A stretch of DNA of 64,000 nucleotides from Bacteroidales bacterium (GTDB taxonomy: Bacteria; Bacteroidota; Bacteroidia; Bacteroidales; DTU049), in assembly GCA_026418905.1 (NCBI GenBank), contig JAOAAK010000003.1, positions 1-64,000 of the forward strand, read 5' to 3'. Below, one piece after another: positions 19,836 to 27,525 of this stretch. The translations under genes were made by a program, and so were the position numbers. A model generated the notes under the pieces. The model was given only the letters and a program-made list of their open reading frames with translations. It made no database searches and was not told where the DNA came from. The stretch's first letter is position 1. Every line of letters starts with the position of its first letter.

Positions 19836-20651
19836 ATGAAAAAGCGAATAGTTTTATTGAGCATTTTAAGCGTATTTATGCTTGTTAACCTGAATGTGGC
19901 TTTTGCGCAAACAAAGCCTAATGCAAAAGCTGACACTATCCAAAAAGATACAACTAAAAAGGACACTGCAAAAACAACAGCAGCAACAACCACTATGCAA
20001 ACTACCGAACCAACGACAGAAAAAACTTTTCACCAGGTTCTCAAAGAAAAATTTATCGAAGGTGGTGCCGGCTGGATGACCCCCATCCTTCTCGTGTTAG
20101 TATTAGGACTTGCCATAGTAATTGAACGCATCATCTATCTAAATCTGAGTAGAATCAATACTCAAAAATTTCTCGAGGAAATCGAGAAACTTCTACAACA
20201 AAACAATGTAGATGGTGCTAAAGAATTAGCACGTAATACAAGAGGGCCCGTTGCTAGTATTGTTTTCCAAGGTCTTGATCGCTATCATGAGGGTATCGAA
20301 AACATTGAAAAAGCTGTTGTTACCTACGGCGAAGTTCAAATGGGAAGACTCGAAAGCGGTCTTTCATGGATTGGCCTTTTCATTGCTCTTTCTCCCATGC
20401 TCGGTTTTTTGGGTACTGTCGTTGGAATGGTTCAAGCTTTTGATGATATAGAAAAAGCCGGTGATATTTCTCCGACCATTGTTGCTGGTGGTATGAAAGT
20501 GGCTCTTCTTACAACTGTTTTTGGTCTTATTTCTGCCATTATTCTACAATTGCTTTACAGTGTGGTGGTATCATTGATTGAATCTCTTGTCAATCAAATG
20601 GAAGACGCTTCTATTTCTTTCATGGACATTATTTACAAAATCAAAAAGTAA
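19836..20651 (+). CDS. MotA/TolQ/ExbB-family proton channel protein
   Basis: A 271-residue inner-membrane subunit of a proton-driven energy transducer. It has an N-terminal signal-like segment (IVLLSILSVFMLVNLNVAFA), an Ala/Thr/Lys-rich linker (~25-65), one membrane helix near 75-95 (MTPILLVLVLGLAIVIERIIYL), a cytoplasmic helical region, and the paired helices GLFIALSPMLGFLGTVVGMVQAF and VALLTTVFGLISAIILQLLY that line the channel. The following small membrane protein and two ExbD-like genes complete the Bacteroidota layout, which could energise TonB-dependent receptors such as the one at 23-25 kb. The 5' end starts 24 bases after the tRNA. Confidence 0.93.
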   Translation: MKKRIVLLSILSVFMLVNLNVAFAQTKPNAKADTIQKDTTKKDTAKTTAATTTMQTTEPTTEKTFHQVLKEKFIEGGAGWMTPILLVLVLGLAIVIERIIYLNLSRINTQKFLEEIEKLLQQNNVDGAKELARNTRGPVASIVFQGLDRYHEGIENIEKAVVTYGEVQMGRLESGLSWIGLFIALSPMLGFLGTVVGMVQAFDDIEKAGDISPTIVAGGMKVALLTTVFGLISAIILQLLYSVVVSLIESLVNQMEDASISFMDIIYKIKK

Positions 20652-20657
20652 AGACCC

Positions 20658-21056
20658 ATGAAAAAAAACAAGTTATTGCAATTTGGACTAATCCTTCTTC
20701 TTATTATTATTGCTCTTGTTTTGTCATTAGGATCAATAGACCTTAGGCTATATGTCGCTTATGCTGCTGGATTGATTGCCATTTTGTCTGCTTTAGCTTT
20801 TTCTGTCTTAAACCTTTTTACCAACTTTAGAAAAAATGCAAAAGTCCTAGGAATTATACTTTTTGCAGTTGGACTTTTTATAATATACTATTTCATTACA
20901 CCACGCACAGATATTGACCCCATGATTTTAGAAAAAACAGGTACTTCTCTAAGCTGGAGTCCTATCATTGGAGCAGGGCTTTATTTTTTATATACTCTAC
21001 TGGGTTTTTTTATCCTAATCATCATCGGTTTTTCCATAAGAAATCTAACGAAATAA
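20658..21056 (+). CDS. Small four-helix membrane protein of the ExbB/ExbD cluster
   Basis: A 132-residue protein with about four hydrophobic segments: LLQFGLILLLIIIALVLSLG, YVAYAAGLIAILSALAFSVL, VLGIILFAVGLFIIYYF and PIIGAGLYFLYTLLGFFILIIIGF. I recognise no catalytic motif. It sits 6 bases after the ExbB gene and 7 before an ExbD gene, and a small membrane protein at this place is a repeated feature in Bacteroidota, so a structural or assembly role in the complex is likely but unproven. Confidence 0.75.
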   Translation: MKKNKLLQFGLILLLIIIALVLSLGSIDLRLYVAYAAGLIAILSALAFSVLNLFTNFRKNAKVLGIILFAVGLFIIYYFITPRTDIDPMILEKTGTSLSWSPIIGAGLYFLYTLLGFFILIIIGFSIRNLTK

Positions 21057-21063
21057 GATTGCC

Positions 21064-21642
21064 ATGGCAAAGAAAGTTCCTGAATTGAATACCTCTTCCA
21101 TGGCTGACATCAGTTTTCTTCTGCTGACATTTTTCCTACTAACTTCAAGCATTGATACTGACTCTGGTTTATTACGTAAGCTTCCCCCTCTTCCCACTCA
21201 AGAGCAAGAAGACATTAAGGTGAAAGAAAGGAATGTATTAGCAGTACTCATAAATGCCTACGATAAGCTCATGGTTGAAGGTAAGATTATGGAAGTTAAA
21301 GATCTACGCAAAACAGTTAAAGAATTTTTCCTTAACCCTTACAATGATCCTAATTTGCCTGAAAAAACTGAAATTGAACTTCCGTACGTTGGAAAATTCA
21401 TGAAATCCAAAGGAGTAATTTCACTTAAGAACGACCGAGGTACATCCTATGAAATGTACATTAAAGTATCCAACGAAATCACAGCGGCTATTAATGAACT
21501 AAGAGATGAACTTTCTATGAAGGTCTTTGGAAAGAAATTCAGAGATTTGAGGGACGAAACCCAGATCAAAGCCATTTCCGATGCATACCCCATGGCAATT
21601 TCCGAAGCAGAACCAGAAGATGTAGGAGGAGGAAAAAAATGA
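21064..21642 (+). CDS. ExbD/TolR-family biopolymer transporter (first copy)
   Basis: A 192-residue protein with the ExbD layout: a short cytoplasmic N-terminus, one membrane helix with the channel aspartate (MADISFLLLTFFLLTSS), then a periplasmic domain. The aspartate is expected to carry protons along the ExbB helices. Its C-terminal half is longer than typical ExbD (~140 residues) and ends in an acidic tail. The stop overlaps the next ExbD start by 4 bases. Confidence 0.92.
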   Translation: MAKKVPELNTSSMADISFLLLTFFLLTSSIDTDSGLLRKLPPLPTQEQEDIKVKERNVLAVLINAYDKLMVEGKIMEVKDLRKTVKEFFLNPYNDPNLPEKTEIELPYVGKFMKSKGVISLKNDRGTSYEMYIKVSNEITAAINELRDELSMKVFGKKFRDLRDETQIKAISDAYPMAISEAEPEDVGGGKK

Positions 21643-22103
21643 GCATTTTTAAAAAGTCAGAAAAAAGAGAAATACCCGGCATCAGCACAGGAAGCATGTC
21701 GGATATTATTTTTATGTTTCTTTTCTTTTTCATGGTTATCACTAAAATACGTGAAGCAACCTTATTGGTTAAAGTGACTCCACCTGCTGCCACCGAAATC
21801 CAGAAATTGGAACGAAAAAATCTTGTTTCGTACATTTACATCGGGGTTCCTATAAATCCTAAATTTGGAACAGATGCACGAATCCAAGTAAACGACCAAT
21901 TTATTACCATAGCCAATGTTATTGATTTTATTGAAAAAGAAAGAGCTGCCCGCTCTGAAGCTGACCGACCTTTTCTGACTACTTCTTTGAAAGTTGATAA
22001 AAAAGTTAAAATGGGAATTGTTACCGACGTAAAACAGGAACTTCGAAAATGCGGTGCATATAAAATCAACTATTCCACCAAAAAAGGAAAGGTGGTAGAA
22101 TAG
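21639..22103 (+). CDS. ExbD/TolR-family biopolymer transporter (second copy)
   Basis: A 154-residue paralogue of the preceding protein, with the membrane helix GSMSDIIFMFLFFFMVITKI holding the functional aspartate. It starts inside the stop of the first ExbD (ATGA). Two unequal ExbD proteins next to ExbB are typical of Bacteroidota and may form mixed dimers in the channel; this mixing is inference. A strong terminator follows. Confidence 0.92.
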   Translation: MSIFKKSEKREIPGISTGSMSDIIFMFLFFFMVITKIREATLLVKVTPPAATEIQKLERKNLVSYIYIGVPINPKFGTDARIQVNDQFITIANVIDFIEKERAARSEADRPFLTTSLKVDKKVKMGIVTDVKQELRKCGAYKINYSTKKGKVVE

Positions 22104-22121
22104 GCCTGTTGCAAATATGCA

Positions 22122-22148
22122 AAGTCGTCCCACGTGGACGACTTTTTT
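22122..22148 (+). terminator. Rho-independent terminator after the ExbB/ExbD cluster
   Basis: AAGTCGTCC, loop CACGT, GGACGACTT, then a run of T. The 9-pair stem lies 18 bases after the second ExbD stop. Because it sits inside the N-terminal part of the longest open frame of the next gene, it shows that the upstream start of that frame is wrong. Confidence 0.9.
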
Positions 22149-22165
22149 TATATAAACAAAAAATT

Positions 22166-22726
22166 ATGAATTCTTTTTACAGTAAAGAAGAATTATTATC
22201 AATTGGATTTAAAACAGTAGGAGAAAATGTTTTGATAAGCAGGAAGGCAAGCTTTTACAGTCCATCGGAAATCGAAATTGGTAATCATGTAAGAATAGAT
22301 GATTTCTGCATTCTTTCGGGAAAAATAAAACTTGGAAATTACATACATATATCTGCACAATGTGCTCTTTATGGACAAGCTGGTATTACTATGGAGGATT
22401 TCACTGGTCTGTCTCCAGGAACTATCGTTTTTTCAGCGACTGATGATTTTTCAGGTGAATATTTGATTGGACCTATGGTACCTCATTCATTTCGTCATGT
22501 GATAGAAGGACATGTTTTTATCAAGAGATTCGTTCAAGTTGGTGCCAGAAGTGTTATACTGCCAGGAGTAATTCTCGAAGAAGGCTGTGCTGTTGGAGCT
22601 ATGTCGCTTATAACCCAATCACTTGAAGCATGGAAAATTTACGCCGGTATTCCTGCTCGATTTATCAAAGAAAGAAGCAGAAGGATGTCAGAATTAACCA
22701 CCCTTCTGCTCAGCAATTCATTATAA
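22166..22726 (+). CDS. Hexapeptide-repeat O-acyltransferase
   Basis: A 186-residue left-handed beta-helix enzyme of the galactoside/serine acetyltransferase superfamily. Hexapeptide turns are visible as IEIGNHVRIDDFCILSG, IKLGNYIHISAQC and ITMEDFTGLSPG. The likely catalytic histidine is in MVPHSFRHVIEGHVFI, and the C-terminal coil is VQVGARSVILPGVILEEGCAVGAMSLI followed by KIYAGIPARFIKER, the usual ending of sugar acyltransferases. Probable role: acetylation of a surface-sugar precursor; donor and acceptor are unknown. I start at the ATG at 22166, because the earlier in-frame start lies before the terminator hairpin. It is convergent with the metal operon, with a 9-base gap. Confidence 0.85.
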   Translation: MNSFYSKEELLSIGFKTVGENVLISRKASFYSPSEIEIGNHVRIDDFCILSGKIKLGNYIHISAQCALYGQAGITMEDFTGLSPGTIVFSATDDFSGEYLIGPMVPHSFRHVIEGHVFIKRFVQVGARSVILPGVILEEGCAVGAMSLITQSLEAWKIYAGIPARFIKERSRRMSELTTLLLSNSL

Positions 22727-22735
22727 GAACAGGCC

Positions 22736-23125
22736 TCAATGTTTACATTCTTCTTGCTTTTTCTTGCAACAAGATGATTTTTTTCTACAATTTTCCTTTT
22801 GGGAAGGTTCAGAAGTTTTTAAATCATTGTTTTGATCGGTTTGAGTAAGATCCGTTGCCTGATAACCAAGTTTTTGAATGGCTTCAACTAATTTTTCTGG
22901 TGAAGTTTGCTGAGAATGGTACTTTACTGTAACAATTTTTGTTTCGAGATCGGCAATGGTTTCGACAACTCCTTTGGTATAAGCAAGTTCGTTTTCGATT
23001 TTTTTCTTGCAGTTTTGACAGTGCATGTTAGTAAGAATTTTAACCTCTCTAATTTCGTCCTGACCTAAAATTGCCATATACACGCTCATTAGGCCAAGAA
23101 AAATAAAAAAACGGATTGTTTTCAT
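22736..23125 (-). CDS. Exported heavy-metal-associated (HMA) domain protein with Cys-rich tail
   Basis: A 129-residue protein. It has a signal peptide (TIRFFIFLGLMSVYMAILG), then an HMA fold over about 25-95 with the metal-binding loop MHCQNCKK (CxxC) and the closing helix EAIQKLGYQAT. The C-terminal tail is rich in Lys and Cys (CRKKSSCCKKKQEECKH). The likely job is periplasmic binding or hand-over of a soft metal such as copper, but the metal is not determined. Start: the open frame continues to 23194, but that N-terminus overlaps the TonB-receptor stop and gives no signal peptide, so I choose the ATG at 23125, 11 bases after that stop. It is the last gene of the probable HYC_CC_PP-like - receptor - HMA operon. 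Confidence 0.85.
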   Translation of the reverse strand: MKTIRFFIFLGLMSVYMAILGQDEIREVKILTNMHCQNCKKKIENELAYTKGVVETIADLETKIVTVKYHSQQTSPEKLVEAIQKLGYQATDLTQTDQNNDLKTSEPSQKENCRKKSSCCKKKQEECKH

Positions 23126-23136
23126 AGCTTTATGTT

Positions 23137-25341
23137 TTAAAGGATAACGTATCTTATTCCAATGTAATACATTCGACCCTCCAATGGAGCCCAAATAATA
23201 CCTGATTCAAATTGATTTGAATAAGGTCTTTGGTAACCTAAAATAGGATTCTTTTGTTTATAATTTGTCAAATTTTCAATGCCACCATAAACCTTCCATC
23301 TCTTCCAGTTCTTAGTTACTTGAACATATCCTGTGAGAAACGATGGAGAAAAATCAGGCAATTGATCGACGATGTAAAAACTCCTATCAGGGAGCCTTGT
23401 TTTTCCATACCAAAGTAGAGTTAGATCAAGAATCCATTTTCGCTGATTGGTAAAGAAAGATAGTGTAAGCAAAGCTCTATGAAAATTGAGCAATGGTTGC
23501 ATCTGCATAATGCCATTCAGATTAGGGTAATAACGCCTGTTCAACTGAAAGGCAGTCCTGGCTTCAAAATGCTTTGTTGGACTTACAGATAGCTCTGTAA
23601 GCATCGAGTGAGCATAAGACTTATTAGTAGAAGAATAAACGTAAATAAAAGATGTATCATGCTCGATGTCAAACAACATTTGAGAAAAAAAGTAAGTGTA
23701 AAAATAATCAAGCGAAAAAGTAAAATCACATCCAAAAAGAGTAAAATATTTCATTAATGCAATACCATTATTCACTGCTTTTTCATATGAAATGGGATTT
23801 TCCCATCGAATTTTTCTATTGGACGTAAACAAGAAAGGAGTTTCGGTAAAAATCATAGGATAATGAACTCCTAAGCCGGAAGTGATACGTAAAATTGTCT
23901 TGTCTGAAATGTTATAACGAAGATGCAAACGAGGTATCAACCGAGAACGTTTATCAAATGAATGATAATCTATCCTACTTCCAGCTTGTAATGTCAATTT
24001 CTTACCCAAAAAATAAGTATGCTGATAAAAAATCCCAGTAGTTACGGGAAACACTACCCAATTGCTATCCGAAAAAGATTGAGCATAATAATCTAAATAC
24101 ATATTAAAACCAGCATCAAACTCATGTTTATCAGGTACGATTTCATAGCGATAGAGAATAGCAGCGTAATAGTTATTTTGTCGACAATCATATTCCTTAA
24201 GACCAAACTTCATAGAAGCATCGATAAAAGTTGTAGATTGAATAAACCCCCATGCAGATTTTGAAGAAGCAACATACCCTCCTTTTGTATATAATTCAAA
24301 GACTTTGTAATTCACATGGGTTTTCCACGCACCATGAAAATCATCGATATGCGCATAAGAACTATTGGTGAGTTGACCACCAGATCTGTCATCGTAGATT
24401 GCGCGAAAGCCACTTCTAAACTCCCACTTTTTTGACGCAAAGAGTTGCCCGTAAGCCTGAAAGGAAAATCTATCCTCCAAAGGTGCATCCATAAAACCAT
24501 CTCGATTATGGTCCATAGACATCCATCGACGGTAAGCATGAGCAAACATAACCATCCCTTTTTTCGAACTACCCAACGTTTTACTCAGATTAATTTCAGT
24601 TTTTCCCTCGCCACCTACGAAAAGATCTACATAAAGATTTTCAGCATCACCAGGTTTTTTTGGATTTATGTTAATCTGTCCGGTAATACTTTCTGATCCG
24701 TGAGTCAGATCGGCCGCTCCTCGAGATACATCTATCGCACTGATCCAACTAGCAGGTATAAATTGTAAAGTATAACTGTTTCCTGCCCCTCGCATGTAGG
24801 GCACATTGTCCATAAGCATTTGAACATACTTCCCAGAAAGACCCAAAAATTGTATTTGCTTAGCTCCACTTACTGCATCTGCATAGGTTACATTTACGCT
24901 GCCAGTTGTCTGGAAACATTCACTTAAATTGCAACAAGGGGCTCTTTGCAATTCATTTTGATGCAAAGTTTGCTTCCACTGTGGACTTAAATAACTCATC
25001 TCTACGGTCCTCCTAGAAGTAATGAGAATCTCCTTCAAGATGAGATTTTCATTTAAGTAGACATTAATATTTTTTGATTCCTGGTTAACATCTATTACCA
25101 TCGTATCAGACACAAATCCAACATAAGAAACTACCAGCGTGTCAGGTAACTGATATTTTTCTATCGCAAAAAAACCTTTATCATCTGTCACTTTCACTAC
25201 CTTTGAGTTAATCAGGACAATGTTCGAATAAGGAAGGTAGAAGGTATCATTACCTCTGACGCCCCAGACTCTTCCTACGATTTGACCATACCCAACGATA
25301 AATATATATGGAAAACAAATAATAAAGAATATTTTTCTCAT
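23137..25341 (-). CDS. TonB-dependent outer-membrane receptor, probably for a metal
   Basis: A 734-residue receptor: signal peptide (IFFIICFPYIFIVGYG), a carboxypeptidase-like beta-sandwich (~20-110, SYVGFVSDTMVID), then the plug domain and a 22-strand-type barrel. The plug opens with QRAPCCNLSECFQTTGSVNV, DAVSGAKQIQFLGLSG and IDVSRGAADLTHGSESITG. The CCNLSE-type plug start is, to my knowledge, a recurring feature of Bacteroidota receptors found beside HMA proteins. The usual C-terminal aromatic (FxF/YxF) is RYVIL. A small Cys/His protein precedes it and an HMA protein follows it, which points to uptake or export of a transition metal. Which metal is inference only. Confidence 0.88.
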   Translation of the reverse strand: MRKIFFIICFPYIFIVGYGQIVGRVWGVRGNDTFYLPYSNIVLINSKVVKVTDDKGFFAIEKYQLPDTLVVSYVGFVSDTMVIDVNQESKNINVYLNENLILKEILITSRRTVEMSYLSPQWKQTLHQNELQRAPCCNLSECFQTTGSVNVTYADAVSGAKQIQFLGLSGKYVQMLMDNVPYMRGAGNSYTLQFIPASWISAIDVSRGAADLTHGSESITGQININPKKPGDAENLYVDLFVGGEGKTEINLSKTLGSSKKGMVMFAHAYRRWMSMDHNRDGFMDAPLEDRFSFQAYGQLFASKKWEFRSGFRAIYDDRSGGQLTNSSYAHIDDFHGAWKTHVNYKVFELYTKGGYVASSKSAWGFIQSTTFIDASMKFGLKEYDCRQNNYYAAILYRYEIVPDKHEFDAGFNMYLDYYAQSFSDSNWVVFPVTTGIFYQHTYFLGKKLTLQAGSRIDYHSFDKRSRLIPRLHLRYNISDKTILRITSGLGVHYPMIFTETPFLFTSNRKIRWENPISYEKAVNNGIALMKYFTLFGCDFTFSLDYFYTYFFSQMLFDIEHDTSFIYVYSSTNKSYAHSMLTELSVSPTKHFEARTAFQLNRRYYPNLNGIMQMQPLLNFHRALLTLSFFTNQRKWILDLTLLWYGKTRLPDRSFYIVDQLPDFSPSFLTGYVQVTKNWKRWKVYGGIENLTNYKQKNPILGYQRPYSNQFESGIIWAPLEGRMYYIGIRYVIL

Positions 25342-25402
25342 AGCGATCTGTTTTAAATAAGTGGTATTTTGAAAGGTTGTGATAGAAATACTGATTAAAA
25401 TC

Positions 25403-25801
25403 TCAAGTTCTAAAACACGAAAATTTTAAATAAAATGGTTCATTACGCAAAAAAATAAAATAATCTTCACGTGAATAAAAATTGCAAAATTCCTTGTTCA
25501 ATTTTAAGAAAGGATGAGGTGGTAAGACAATATTTAAAATGAACTTTTCAAAAAAAAATATGGGAAAAAATGAAAAAGAAATTCTCTCACAACAAGAACC
25601 TACATTAAATCGAATGTTTAACTCCGAAGGTTCATTTTTATGATTGCTGCAATTTGCATCTTCTCTTTCATGATCACATTTACCAAAAAAAACATGAAAA
25701 GTTTGTTTTTCATGACATATATGAATAGCATAAAGCTGGAACAATACCTGCTGAATAAATAAAATTGCTATAAGTATGTATATAGGATATGAACTTTTCA
25801 C
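25403..25801 (-). CDS. Small HYC_CC_PP-like membrane/secreted protein
   Basis: A 132-residue protein. After an N-terminal hydrophobic segment (IYILIAILFIQQVLFQLY) it shows three short motifs in order: HICHEKQ, GSCCERI and LPPHPF. These fit a Bacteroidota family that NCBI calls HYC_CC_PP (named for HYC, CC and PP), here with HIC for HYC. The remaining part has ISFSFFPIFFFEKFILNI, a second hydrophobic stretch. Cys and His residues suggest metal binding. It starts with a GTG only 4 bases after a -7 box. It begins the operon with the TonB receptor 61 bases downstream. Family membership is recognised from motifs, not from a search. Confidence 0.65.
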   Translation of the reverse strand: MKSSYPIYILIAILFIQQVLFQLYAIHICHEKQTFHVFFGKCDHEREDANCSNHKNEPSELNIRFNVGSCCERISFSFFPIFFFEKFILNIVLPPHPFLKLNKEFCNFYSREDYFIFLRNEPFYLKFSCFRT

Positions 25802-25805
25802 GTAA

Positions 25806-25813
25806 CAAATATA
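25806..25813 (-). promoter_or_regulatory. Promoter -7 box of the metal operon
   Basis: The minus strand reads TATATTTG, an exact TAnnTTTG match, 4 bases before the GTG at 25801. No clear TTTG -33 element is seen. Confidence 0.45.
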
Positions 25814-25850
25814 ATCAAATAAAAAAAATGTAATAAGAAGATGATCTTTA

Positions 25851-26582
25851 TCAAGGTTTTACGATGTCGAGTAGCTCTACTTTAAAAATGAGTACAGATC
25901 CAGCTGGTATAGCAGGCAAAGAACGATCACCATAACCTAATTCACTTGGAATATAAAATTCATAAATAGATCCAACTGGCATGAGTTGCAAGCCTTCCTG
26001 CCAACCTGCAATTACACCGTTGAGATTAAATTCAATGGGTTGACCACGATCATAACTTGAGTCAAAAATTTTTCCGTCTATGAGCTTACCTTCGTAATGC
26101 ACCTTCACCTTACTATTTAAAGTTGGCTTGGGACCATTTCCTTCTTGTATAACCTTGTATTGCAATCCACTCGACGTGACTATAACTCCAGGTTTGTTTT
26201 TATTTTCTTCAAGCCATTTTTTGCCAGCTTCCTTGTTTTTCTTTGCTTCTTCTGCCTGAGCCTCCTCCATTTTCCTTTGGAGTTCTCGTTGCAATCGTTG
26301 CATTACAGCATTGAATTGTTCTTTAGTGAAAATAGTATCTTTTCCTACCAAACCATCGCGTATGCCTTGGAAAAGCAGGTTTTCATTTACTTGGATTTTA
26401 TTCATGCTAAGACTTCTGCCTATATCGGATCCAATCATATAACTGACCGTATCACTAAATTGAGTAAAAGTTAGGGTGGTCACTGTTGACTTTTTGCTTC
26501 TGTTTTTCTTTTGCTTTTGAGCATATACAACCACATTTCCCACCACCAAAAAAATAAACAAGGTAATGAATCTTATTTTCAT
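25851..26582 (-). CDS. FKBP-type peptidyl-prolyl isomerase (Mip-like)
   Basis: A 243-residue exported isomerase. It has a signal peptide (FITLFIFLVVGNVVVYA), then a helical FKBP N-terminal domain (~38-125, SYMIGSDIGRSLSMNKIQVNENLLFQGIRDGLVG) that dimerises in Mip/FkpA proteins, then the FKBP catalytic domain (~135-243) with VKVHYEGKLIDGKIFDSSYDRG, VIAGWQEGLQLMPVGS and the tail LGYGDRSLPAIPAGSVLIFKVELLDI. It catalyses proline isomerisation in periplasmic or outer-membrane protein folding. It is adjacent to a PstS-like lipoprotein gene on the same strand, 7 bases upstream. Confidence 0.93.
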   Translation of the reverse strand: MKIRFITLFIFLVVGNVVVYAQKQKKNRSKKSTVTTLTFTQFSDTVSYMIGSDIGRSLSMNKIQVNENLLFQGIRDGLVGKDTIFTKEQFNAVMQRLQRELQRKMEEAQAEEAKKNKEAGKKWLEENKNKPGVIVTSSGLQYKVIQEGNGPKPTLNSKVKVHYEGKLIDGKIFDSSYDRGQPIEFNLNGVIAGWQEGLQLMPVGSIYEFYIPSELGYGDRSLPAIPAGSVLIFKVELLDIVKP

Positions 26583-26589
26583 ATAATAA

Positions 26590-27525
26590 TTATTTGGGTT
26601 TTACATAGCCACGTGGCTCGAGCAAATTTAAAGCATTTTCGTTCACAAATTTCATAAATTCCATAAGCTCTTTTTTAGTTTGAGTTTTTTGAAAATAAAC
26701 ATAATGTTTCAAAGCAAAACCTTCAGGATATTTTCCTCGAAGATATGCTTTTTTAAGATGATTAATTTGATCATAAAACAACTCGTCATCCGAAAGAAAC
26801 TGATCATCGTTCAAATCGAGAAAAAGAGGATAAATACCTTTTTTTCTTAAACCACTTCGAAGATCATATACGTCACGTAATGAAATACACGCCAAACCAC
26901 CTTTAGAAACACTAAGGTTTTGTTTCACTTGATCATAAGAAGGAACTATATGATGTGAATGAATCCTAACTTGAAAATATTTATGCAGTAAAATATTGAC
27001 TGGATGATTTTGAGGAGGAACAAAAACTTGGAGGGATTGAGACGGCACATCTTTGAGAATTTGATTCCAATTTCGAATTTCATAACTTGATAAAACCTTT
27101 TTCAAAGTTTGCAAATCTATTCCTGTTTGAACCAATCGAGGTAGAACCGGATTATCAAAATTTAAAGCGAAGAGATAAATTTCATTGACAAGGTTTTTAT
27201 AAATAAAAAGAGTATCTAGTTCAAAACTTGAAAAAACAGCATCAAAGACTGTGATTTTTAAAATAGAATCGATCTTTTCCGAATTAATTTCTTGCAACCT
27301 GATTGTCTTATCTGGATGTATGAAAGAAAATTCTTGAGCAAGAACCCTAGCAATATCATAAGATTCAGTAGTATAACCAATGATAAGTGGTGTTGCCTCT
27401 ATCTTCTCTTCTGTGGCAGGATGATCTGAAACCTCGCGAGTATTGTCCTTTTTCCTACACCCTATCAATAACAATACACTTAAAATTACAAGAAACGCAA
27501 TTCTCATAGACTTAAAAGATTTCAT
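26590..27525 (-). CDS. PstS-like substrate-binding lipoprotein
   Basis: An approximately 311-residue lipoprotein (signal FLVILSVLLLIGC, lipid cysteine). The body has the outline of a type II periplasmic binding protein: LIIGYTTESYDIARVLAQEF, FDAVFSSF, EIRNWNQILKD, NHPVNILLHKYF and a C-terminal MEFMKFVNENA...LEPRGYVKPK. The opening resembles PstS phosphate receptors, but the usual phosphate-binding Ser/Thr/Asp set is not obvious and no Pst ABC genes are nearby. The ligand is therefore unknown. It overlaps the urocanase stop by 14 bases if the ATG at 27525 is used; an ATG at 27507 is a close alternative. It lies downstream of hutU on the same strand. Confidence 0.65.
   Translation of the reverse strand: MKSFKSMRIAFLVILSVLLLIGCRKKDNTREVSDHPATEEKIEATPLIIGYTTESYDIARVLAQEFSFIHPDKTIRLQEINSEKIDSILKITVFDAVFSSFELDTLFIYKNLVNEIYLFALNFDNPVLPRLVQTGIDLQTLKKVLSSYEIRNWNQILKDVPSQSLQVFVPPQNHPVNILLHKYFQVRIHSHHIVPSYDQVKQNLSVSKGGLACISLRDVYDLRSGLRKKGIYPLFLDLNDDQFLSDDELFYDQINHLKKAYLRGKYPEGFALKHYVYFQKTQTKKELMEFMKFVNENALNLLEPRGYVKPK

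Follow-up and report, generated by a model that had tools for sequence, protein, structure and literature searches.

Organisation of the locus

Here we describe an operon from a Bacteroidales bacterium (assembly GCA_026418905.1, contig JAOAAK010000003.1), located in the first 64,000 nucleotides of this contig; this whole 64-kb stretch was analysed and is called the window below. Along the minus strand the locus comprises, in order, a −7 promoter element TATATTTG (25,806–25,813; consensus TAnnTTTG), a spacer of 4 nt, and three open reading frames (ORFs). They encode a small cysteine protein of the HYC type, a TonB-dependent receptor and an exported HMA protein resembling MerP and CopZ. The three genes are one operon, which is a widespread conserved module. 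A reading made from the sequence alone had placed a three-gene metal module here with its outer end at 25,813. This is borne out: all ORFs lie on the minus strand, the plug domain of the receptor and the HMA domain are above their Pfam cut-offs, and 25,813 is the first base of the −7 box.

The HYC-type protein (25,403–25,801, 132 aa) starts with GTG and has an N-terminal hydrophobic helix, the HICH motif with C29, then C51, the pair C70–C71 and a PP motif. After a gap of 61 bp comes the receptor (23,137–25,341, 734 aa) with a signal peptide, a CarbopepD_reg_2 domain, a Ton-box-like LKEILIT at residues 102–108, a plug and a barrel. The plug match (PF07715) reaches 44.8 bits with a cut-off of 23.9, and the barrel match (PF00593) stays at 21.3 bits, below its cut-off of 27; the predicted model is a barrel with a plug. 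Residues 134–143 read APCCNLSECF, so that the plug opening (APCCNLSE) contains the vicinal pair C136–C137 (codons at 24,931–24,936, minus strand), with C142 slightly further on. The second motif of interest, DHNRDGFMDAP (D277–P287, codons at 24,481–24,513, minus strand), has the calcium-type form DxNxDGxxD and probably faces outwards, as judged by the strand and turn lengths of the model. The HMA protein (22,736–23,125, 129 aa) is read from an ATG that follows the stop codon of the receptor by 11 bp; the program-made ORF begins upstream of it, at TTG 23,194. It has a signal-peptide-like N-terminus, MHCQNC and the Lys/Cys tail NCRKKSSCCKKKQEECKH. Its HMA domain (PF00403) scores 56.7 bits, the cut-off being 24.8, and the CxxC motif is CQNC.

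Conservation of the module

The receptor is present in 93 of 149 genomes across the order Bacteroidales, its own genome included (E ≤ 1e-30). A species-wide scan with one genome per species and three patterns, one of them CCNL, gave at least 593 stretches with a pattern, of which 581 encode a relative of the receptor (E ≤ 1e-3). The best 80 of these 581 were taken as scan loci. They belong to Bacteroidota and to records named Ignavibacterium, Ignavibacteriaceae, Melioribacteraceae and Kapaibacterium. Weak matches of the window's own genome (L002–L005) were excluded. Three loci are doubled (L007 = L035, L029 = L055, L034 = L060); the doubles were removed from the promoter counts and kept among the 80 scan loci.

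The neighbourhood was counted in the 62 loci with full flanks (at least 0.8 kb upstream and at least 1.5 kb downstream), which include the window and count none of the doubles twice, stretches L006–L034 being too short for this set. Within 1.5 kb of the receptor, an HYC gene is found in 57 of them, an HMA gene in 47, both in 42 and neither in none. The 57 are partly given by construction, since the HYC profile was trained on these loci; the independent figure, obtained with the NCBIfam model NF047658, is 29 of 62 proteins (the window's own and 61 of the 67 first upstream genes). Similarly, 30 of the loci counted supplied the training sequences of the HMA profile, and the independent figure is a Pfam HMA match in 46 of 81 downstream genes (those aligned and scanned among the 88 listed). 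When 47 loci with 5-kb flanks are considered, the distance to the HMA gene is less than 1 kb in 34 loci and 2–5 kb in 5; for the HYC gene the numbers are 42 and 1. The sequence-only reading had named receptors with the same cysteine motif outside metal contexts as what would speak against it. With the profiles partly trained there, HYC, HMA or both stand nearby in all 62 loci.

Directly downstream of the receptor, an AraC-type regulator gene was seen in Dyadobacter (L059:8166-8735), in a Spirosomataceae metagenome-assembled genome (MAG; L061:7840-8400) and in Siphonobacter (L108:8068-8619). It is a candidate regulator of the module.

The HMA protein of the window matches the profile of the syntenic HMA proteins with an E-value of 5.3e-27, the window being outside the training set. 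Export appears to be the rule: 29 of 30 proteins carry an N-terminus of K/R plus hydrophobic residues, by a crude pattern, and 18 of 30 have a CC tail. The module is similar to MerP–MerT, which also combines a periplasmic HMA protein with CxxC and a vicinal cysteine pair as the exchange partner. However, unlike in MerT, the vicinal pair is here in the plug of an outer-membrane receptor, and the HMA protein of the window reaches only 44.3 of the 180 bits required by the MerTP model. It is likewise under the curated cut-offs of CopZ (41.4 of 91 bits) and MerP (22.9 of 92.55 bits).

Two further HMA genes were noted. The window genome encodes a second exported-looking HMA protein (L116:1423-1770, contig C3, near 100530) with CERG at the position of CxxC, likely a non-binding or altered HMA. 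In one Cytophagales MAG the receptor is directly followed by a fusion of HMA with a MauE-type membrane domain (L097:8187-8930), which is a candidate inner-membrane partner.

HYC genes in two kinds of operon

The first protein had been called HYC_CC_PP-like, and here the outcome is divided. The curated NCBIfam model HYC_CC_PP (NF047658, cut-off 28 bits) does not match the window protein at E up to 0.1, nor anything in its genome at E up to 10. The likeness is supported by a syntenic profile, made from 64 genes at the same position elsewhere, which were chosen by their cysteine motifs, the window excluded. With this profile the window protein is the best of 519 ORFs in the window, with 18.9 bits and the next at 6.0, and when searched alone it scores 19.5 bits versus at most 12.3 in 4000 shuffles (3999 scored). 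The HYC set has the same cysteine layout as NF047658. In the alignment of 66 sequences (65 of the 66 listed relatives were aligned) cysteine is invariant at positions 29 and 71 and kept in at least 90% of the sequences at positions 51, 52 and 70. The structure model has a low confidence (pLDDT 63) and was not used for claims on the fold.

HYC genes, searched with a model from an alignment that includes the window's own protein, occur in 98 of the 149 genomes: 80 have both HYC and the receptor, 18 only HYC, 13 only the receptor and 38 neither. Of the 121 HYC places, 77 have a receptor within 1.5 kb and the other 44 do not; for this linkage 98 of 104 receptor rows were used, the other six being further pieces of receptors already listed. 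We sampled 20 of the 44 unlinked genes (L119–L138), roughly in rank order with some skipped and including six of the eight that have CopA no more than 20 kb away, where only rows outright over the cut-off served as CopA positions and three rows over it only 'with neighbours' were left out. In this non-random sample CusA-like genes lie alongside in 15 loci, CopA-like genes in 4 and either of them in 18. Among the probed neighbours three are above the CusA/CzcA cut-off (L121, L138, L122), two, on truncated stretches, do not reach it (L119, L132), and a further one is an ATPase of the Cu type. All four CopA-like neighbours exceed the TIGR01511 cut-off. The 105 receptor stretches, mostly shorter or of other lengths, contain CusA-like genes in 3 and CopA-like genes in 3, the latter all from Dyadobacter (L058, L059, L062). 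The two classes differ also in the promoter, as a −7 box close to the start is found in 2 of 20 unlinked versus 47 of 90 receptor-linked HYC genes (p = 4e-4). Hence, as most of the sampled unlinked HYC genes lie with CusA- or CopA-like genes and the linked ones lie by the receptor, HYC is part of two types of metal operon, in which it accompanies an importer and exporters, respectively. The unlinked HYC_CC_PP-type genes may be used as a marker for metal-efflux operons of Bacteroidales.

Promoter and start of the transcript

According to PMC6847099, the G of TAnnTTTG is at −5 in Flavobacterium johnsoniae. A start codon 4 bases past the box is therefore expected to begin at the first transcript base. 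In the window exactly 4 nt separate the box from the GTG of the HYC gene, as the sequence-only reading had stated, which predicts a leaderless transcript starting at or next to the GTG. The motif alone is weak, occurring 34 times on the plus and 57 times on the minus strand of the window, and it is the spacing across relatives that serves as evidence.

Of the 90 receptor-linked HYC genes, counted without the window and the doubles, 47 have an in-frame start 0–12 nt past the end of the box. Exactly 4 nt is the commonest spacing, found in 13 of 48 boxed HYC genes with the window included; one of these is in the culturable Draconibacterium orientale (L113), also with a GTG start. For comparison, the box is 0–12 nt from the start in 18 of 429 other genes that come from these loci and have no less than 60 nt of intergenic sequence; Fisher's p is 5e-27 and is overstated, as related species are not independent. 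Candidate starts were the first six at least 15 codons before HxC for HYC genes and the first six in the first 30 codons for the others. Under a single rule for both groups, which takes the start of the longest ORF and requires at least 100 nt of intergenic sequence, 32 of 58 HYC genes have a box in their upstream 100 nt, compared with 87 of 307 other genes; it lies no more than 10 nt from the start in 20 of the 32 and 8 of the 87. About half of the receptor-linked HYC genes are without a close box.

The internal gaps show no excess of boxes. None of the 53 gaps between HYC and receptor genes, that of the window among them, contains TAnnTTTG, where shuffling leads one to expect 3.8; of the 44 gaps that follow the receptor one contains it, with 0.8 expected. 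This agrees with the single promoter of the sequence-only reading. We note that sigma-70 promoters are not in excess (9 found, 13.0 expected), and that 4 terminator-like sites, with 1.8 expected, are all within the receptor gene. Rfam gives no matches in window positions 22,000–27,000.

Hence, the operon apparently opens with a leaderless HYC gene, the RNA 5′ end being predicted from the DNA. Such a first gene is an exception to the mostly leadered mRNAs of the phylum. In published 5′-end maps, about 3.7% of the 5′ untranslated regions (UTRs) of Bacteroides thetaiotaomicron are shorter than 10 nt, and 5.5% of the mRNAs of Flavobacterium psychrophilum are leaderless; for F. johnsoniae PMC6847099 gives 87% of leaders longer than 10 nt.

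On its promoter side the operon is preceded by a gene for an FKBP-type isomerase on the same strand. On the other flank are a hexapeptide-repeat transferase gene and an ExbB–ExbD–ExbD cluster, both pointing towards the operon. The cluster, at 19,836–22,103, encodes ExbB, two ExbD proteins and a small protein; it may provide the energy for TonB receptors or may be part of another machine.

The receptor and its cysteine pair

AlphaFold2 with 71 sequences gives a receptor model with a pLDDT of 89.6, and the predicted fold is that of an ordinary TonB-dependent importer. The nearest solved chains are PirA, Cir and BtuB (Z 35–37), with PirA at Z 37.1 over 502 residues and an rmsd of 2.9, and OprC follows at Z about 31. 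In the model C136–C137 lie in the loop between the short first plug strand and helix on one side and the plug helix 139–145 on the other. The profile alignment with Cir puts the pair on the residues preceding NLKDVLKEVPGV, just before plug helix 1. In the structural match it corresponds to about residue 25–34 of BtuB, as estimated from the range starts; the Ton box of BtuB lies at about residues 6–12. The Ton-box-like segment of the window receptor is also ahead of the plug, and in the 71 receptors the majority string there is LDEVTVT, as read by eye. By alignment the pair is thus at the periplasmic end of the plug, where the sequence-only reading had assumed it, at the plug start facing the periplasm.

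Both cysteines, N, L and F are present in all 30 receptors that were read as the longest ORF regardless of the motif, and E in 29 of them. The best 80 scan loci, found in part by this very motif, have CCNL in 75 cases and CCSL or CCTL in 5. Together the pair is present in 107 of 107 distinct receptors read (30 motif-blind and 80 scan loci, three shared). It is the sole cysteine after residue 30 in 42 of 71 aligned receptors; the window receptor has three further cysteines after the signal peptide, C142 of the motif being one. A vicinal pair in a receptor that has no other conserved cysteine could also be structural or redox-active, for example a vicinal disulphide with a locking or sensing role in the plug, with the neighbours handling metal incidentally rather than the pair being a metal ligand. 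However, CxxC and CC proteins are its constant companions and the pair is kept in 30 of 30 receptors chosen regardless of it. We consider such a role distinctly improbable.

The outer loop allows a different explanation. D277 is aspartate in 70 of 70 relatives, D281 and D285 in 67 of 70 each, and the strict calcium-type pattern is present in 47 of 71 receptors. The loop is presumably placed like the Ca-binding loop of BtuB. The NCBIfam BtuB model (TIGR01779) matches weakly over the plug and the loop, with 24 bits (E 1.3e-5). The receptor may hence import a metal-bearing molecule, such as a metallophore complex, a corrinoid-like compound or a thiol–metal complex, using an outer loop that depends on Ca like that of BtuB, and the CC pair and HMA would strip or receive the metal later. 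BtuB is among the best structural matches, and CrtA of Bordetella imports chelated copper according to PMC12914433. However, 24 bits compare with a BtuB cut-off of 599.7, and no recurrent biosynthetic or surface-lipoprotein family is seen among 25 of the 42 families from the 81 downstream genes, the scan upstream ending at HYC. We regard the import of a whole metal-bearing molecule as possible, although rather unlikely.

With BtuB and XusA-type receptors the window receptor shares the fold, and with BtuB the acidic calcium-type loop; XusA (9gbc) is its best sequence match in the PDB, the N-terminal domain included. Unlike in these systems, neither a B12 nor a siderophore context was seen at the loci, and the CC pair and the HYC and HMA partners are present. 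OprC/NosA of Pseudomonas is similar in its TonB-dependent fold and metal context, and a cysteine of the OprC plug binds copper, as described in PMC8610252. However, the site of OprC, according to the same paper, combines a CxxxM of the plug with an HxM of the barrel and is reached from outside. The CC pair of the present receptor is about 45 residues earlier than the CxxxM (an estimate from range starts) and near the periplasmic side. A TonB receptor of Bacteroidota with the OprC motif is mentioned in PMC11213822 and is, by this motif, of a different kind from the present one. CrtA is a TonB-dependent importer as well, with copper demonstrated in PMC12914433; receptors of its kind have an invariant ligand His. 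CrtA is linked to haem-copper oxidases, with which the present receptor is not associated. The solitary vicinal cysteine pair, the apparently leaderless, import-linked HYC gene and the exporter company of HYC genes away from the receptor appear to be new. Among the open-access PMC papers listed in our searches, none deals with the operon as far as title or abstract start tell, and none contains the term 'HYC_CC_PP'.

Metal and direction

We suggest that the operon is a cell-envelope importer of a soft metal, most likely copper, a proposal to which we give an even chance; its metal, direction and relay are deduced from sequence and context. The direction is suggested by the receptor class. Copper is favoured because of the CusA and CopA company of HYC, the MxCxxC of the window HMA protein and the soft-ligand pairs. 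The CusA/CzcA- and CopA-like neighbours of HYC genes suggest copper or a similar soft metal.

The same evidence may be read as pointing to a different soft or borderline metal (Zn, Hg, Ag or Cd) or to metal defence, with the periplasmic HMA and HYC proteins mainly binding and buffering the metal. The exporters that adjoin the HYC relatives belong to the CusA/CzcA family, which also covers Zn, Co and Cd pumps; MerTP and CopZ rank among the best NCBIfam matches to the HMA protein, none of which reaches its cut-off; and the receptor is spread independently of COX1 and CopA. However, a TonB-dependent receptor brings solutes in, which would be odd for detoxification, and a CopA-type (Cu) ATPase stands beside 4 of the 20 unlinked HYC genes. 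This explanation is a real possibility, yet probably not the right one.

Several observations weigh against a copper importer with a cysteine relay. The supply of copper to a haem-copper oxidase and a genome-wide co-occurrence with CopA were both considered and rejected. In the 149 genomes COX1 is found in 38 of 93 with the receptor and 23 of 56 without it (p = 1), CopA over the cut-off in 42 of 93 and 27 of 56 (p = 0.74). Since there is no association, COX1 and CopA do not explain the spread of the receptor, and 31 of the 93 receptor genomes have neither at the thresholds used. The window genome (2.1 Mb, 97% complete) yielded no COX1, CopA or P-type ATPase (PF00122), while the PF00122 search was positive in all 14 control genomes. 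It has one other HMA protein and two CusA-like RND pumps, which are below the CusA cut-off, and no onward route from the periplasm was seen in it. An OprC-like site was also rejected: the window receptor lacks CxxxM and has a single HxM (HSM), and 1 of 71 aligned receptors has CxxxM after residue 30.

Other points concern the individual proteins. The sequences of HMA and HYC cannot separate Cu from Zn, Hg or Ag, and instead of binding metal the CC pair could be joined in a vicinal disulphide or have a redox or folding role. In 15 of the 62 loci there is no HMA gene within 1.5 kb. Of the 71 receptors that of the window diverges most, with a mean identity of 31% (overall mean 42.5%), and it deviates at 28 columns conserved to at least 90%; its HYC protein has Ser52 where relatives keep a near-invariant cysteine. 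Because of this divergence and the missing cysteine, the window module may differ in its substrate.

Proposed mechanism

For the soft-metal importer we propose the following steps, all of them conditional.

Step 1: One promoter would give a leaderless mRNA that starts with HYC. The HYC product, anchored by its N-terminal helix, would be a periplasmic cysteine protein that handles the same metal as the receptor.

Step 2: The receptor would take the metal or a metal complex at the cell surface and move it through the plug with the energy of ExbBD–TonB. Cys136–Cys137, just behind the Ton box on the periplasmic side of the plug, would be the exit ligand.

Step 3: The CC pair would then give up the metal to the secreted HMA protein, whose CxxC would take it over by thiol exchange. 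In a similar way, Hg(II) is reportedly exchanged between the vicinal cysteines of MerT and the CxxC of MerP.

A bolder version of this scheme is that the receptors are an outer-membrane transporter class of their own, which delivers a soft metal via the vicinal cysteine pair of the plug directly to a periplasmic CxxC protein in a MerT/MerP-like relay. This class would extend across Bacteroidota and Ignavibacteria, also in genomes in which no haem-copper oxidase, CopA or, in the window genome, any P-type ATPase was found; this would imply an as yet unknown use of the metal in the periplasm. The leaderless HYC gene at its head would separate the import-linked from the export-linked (Cus) HYC genes, perhaps with a metal-dependent control. 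We put this version forward tentatively and consider it unlikely as a whole.

Implications

This receptor clade, a transporter not yet characterised, is common in the order Bacteroidales (93 of the 149 genomes), and its loci include rumen records; we know of no copper need of rumen anaerobes. If the receptor imports copper or a like metal, the metal supply of these bacteria becomes directly testable, and there would be a second cysteine-based plug chemistry beside that of OprC.

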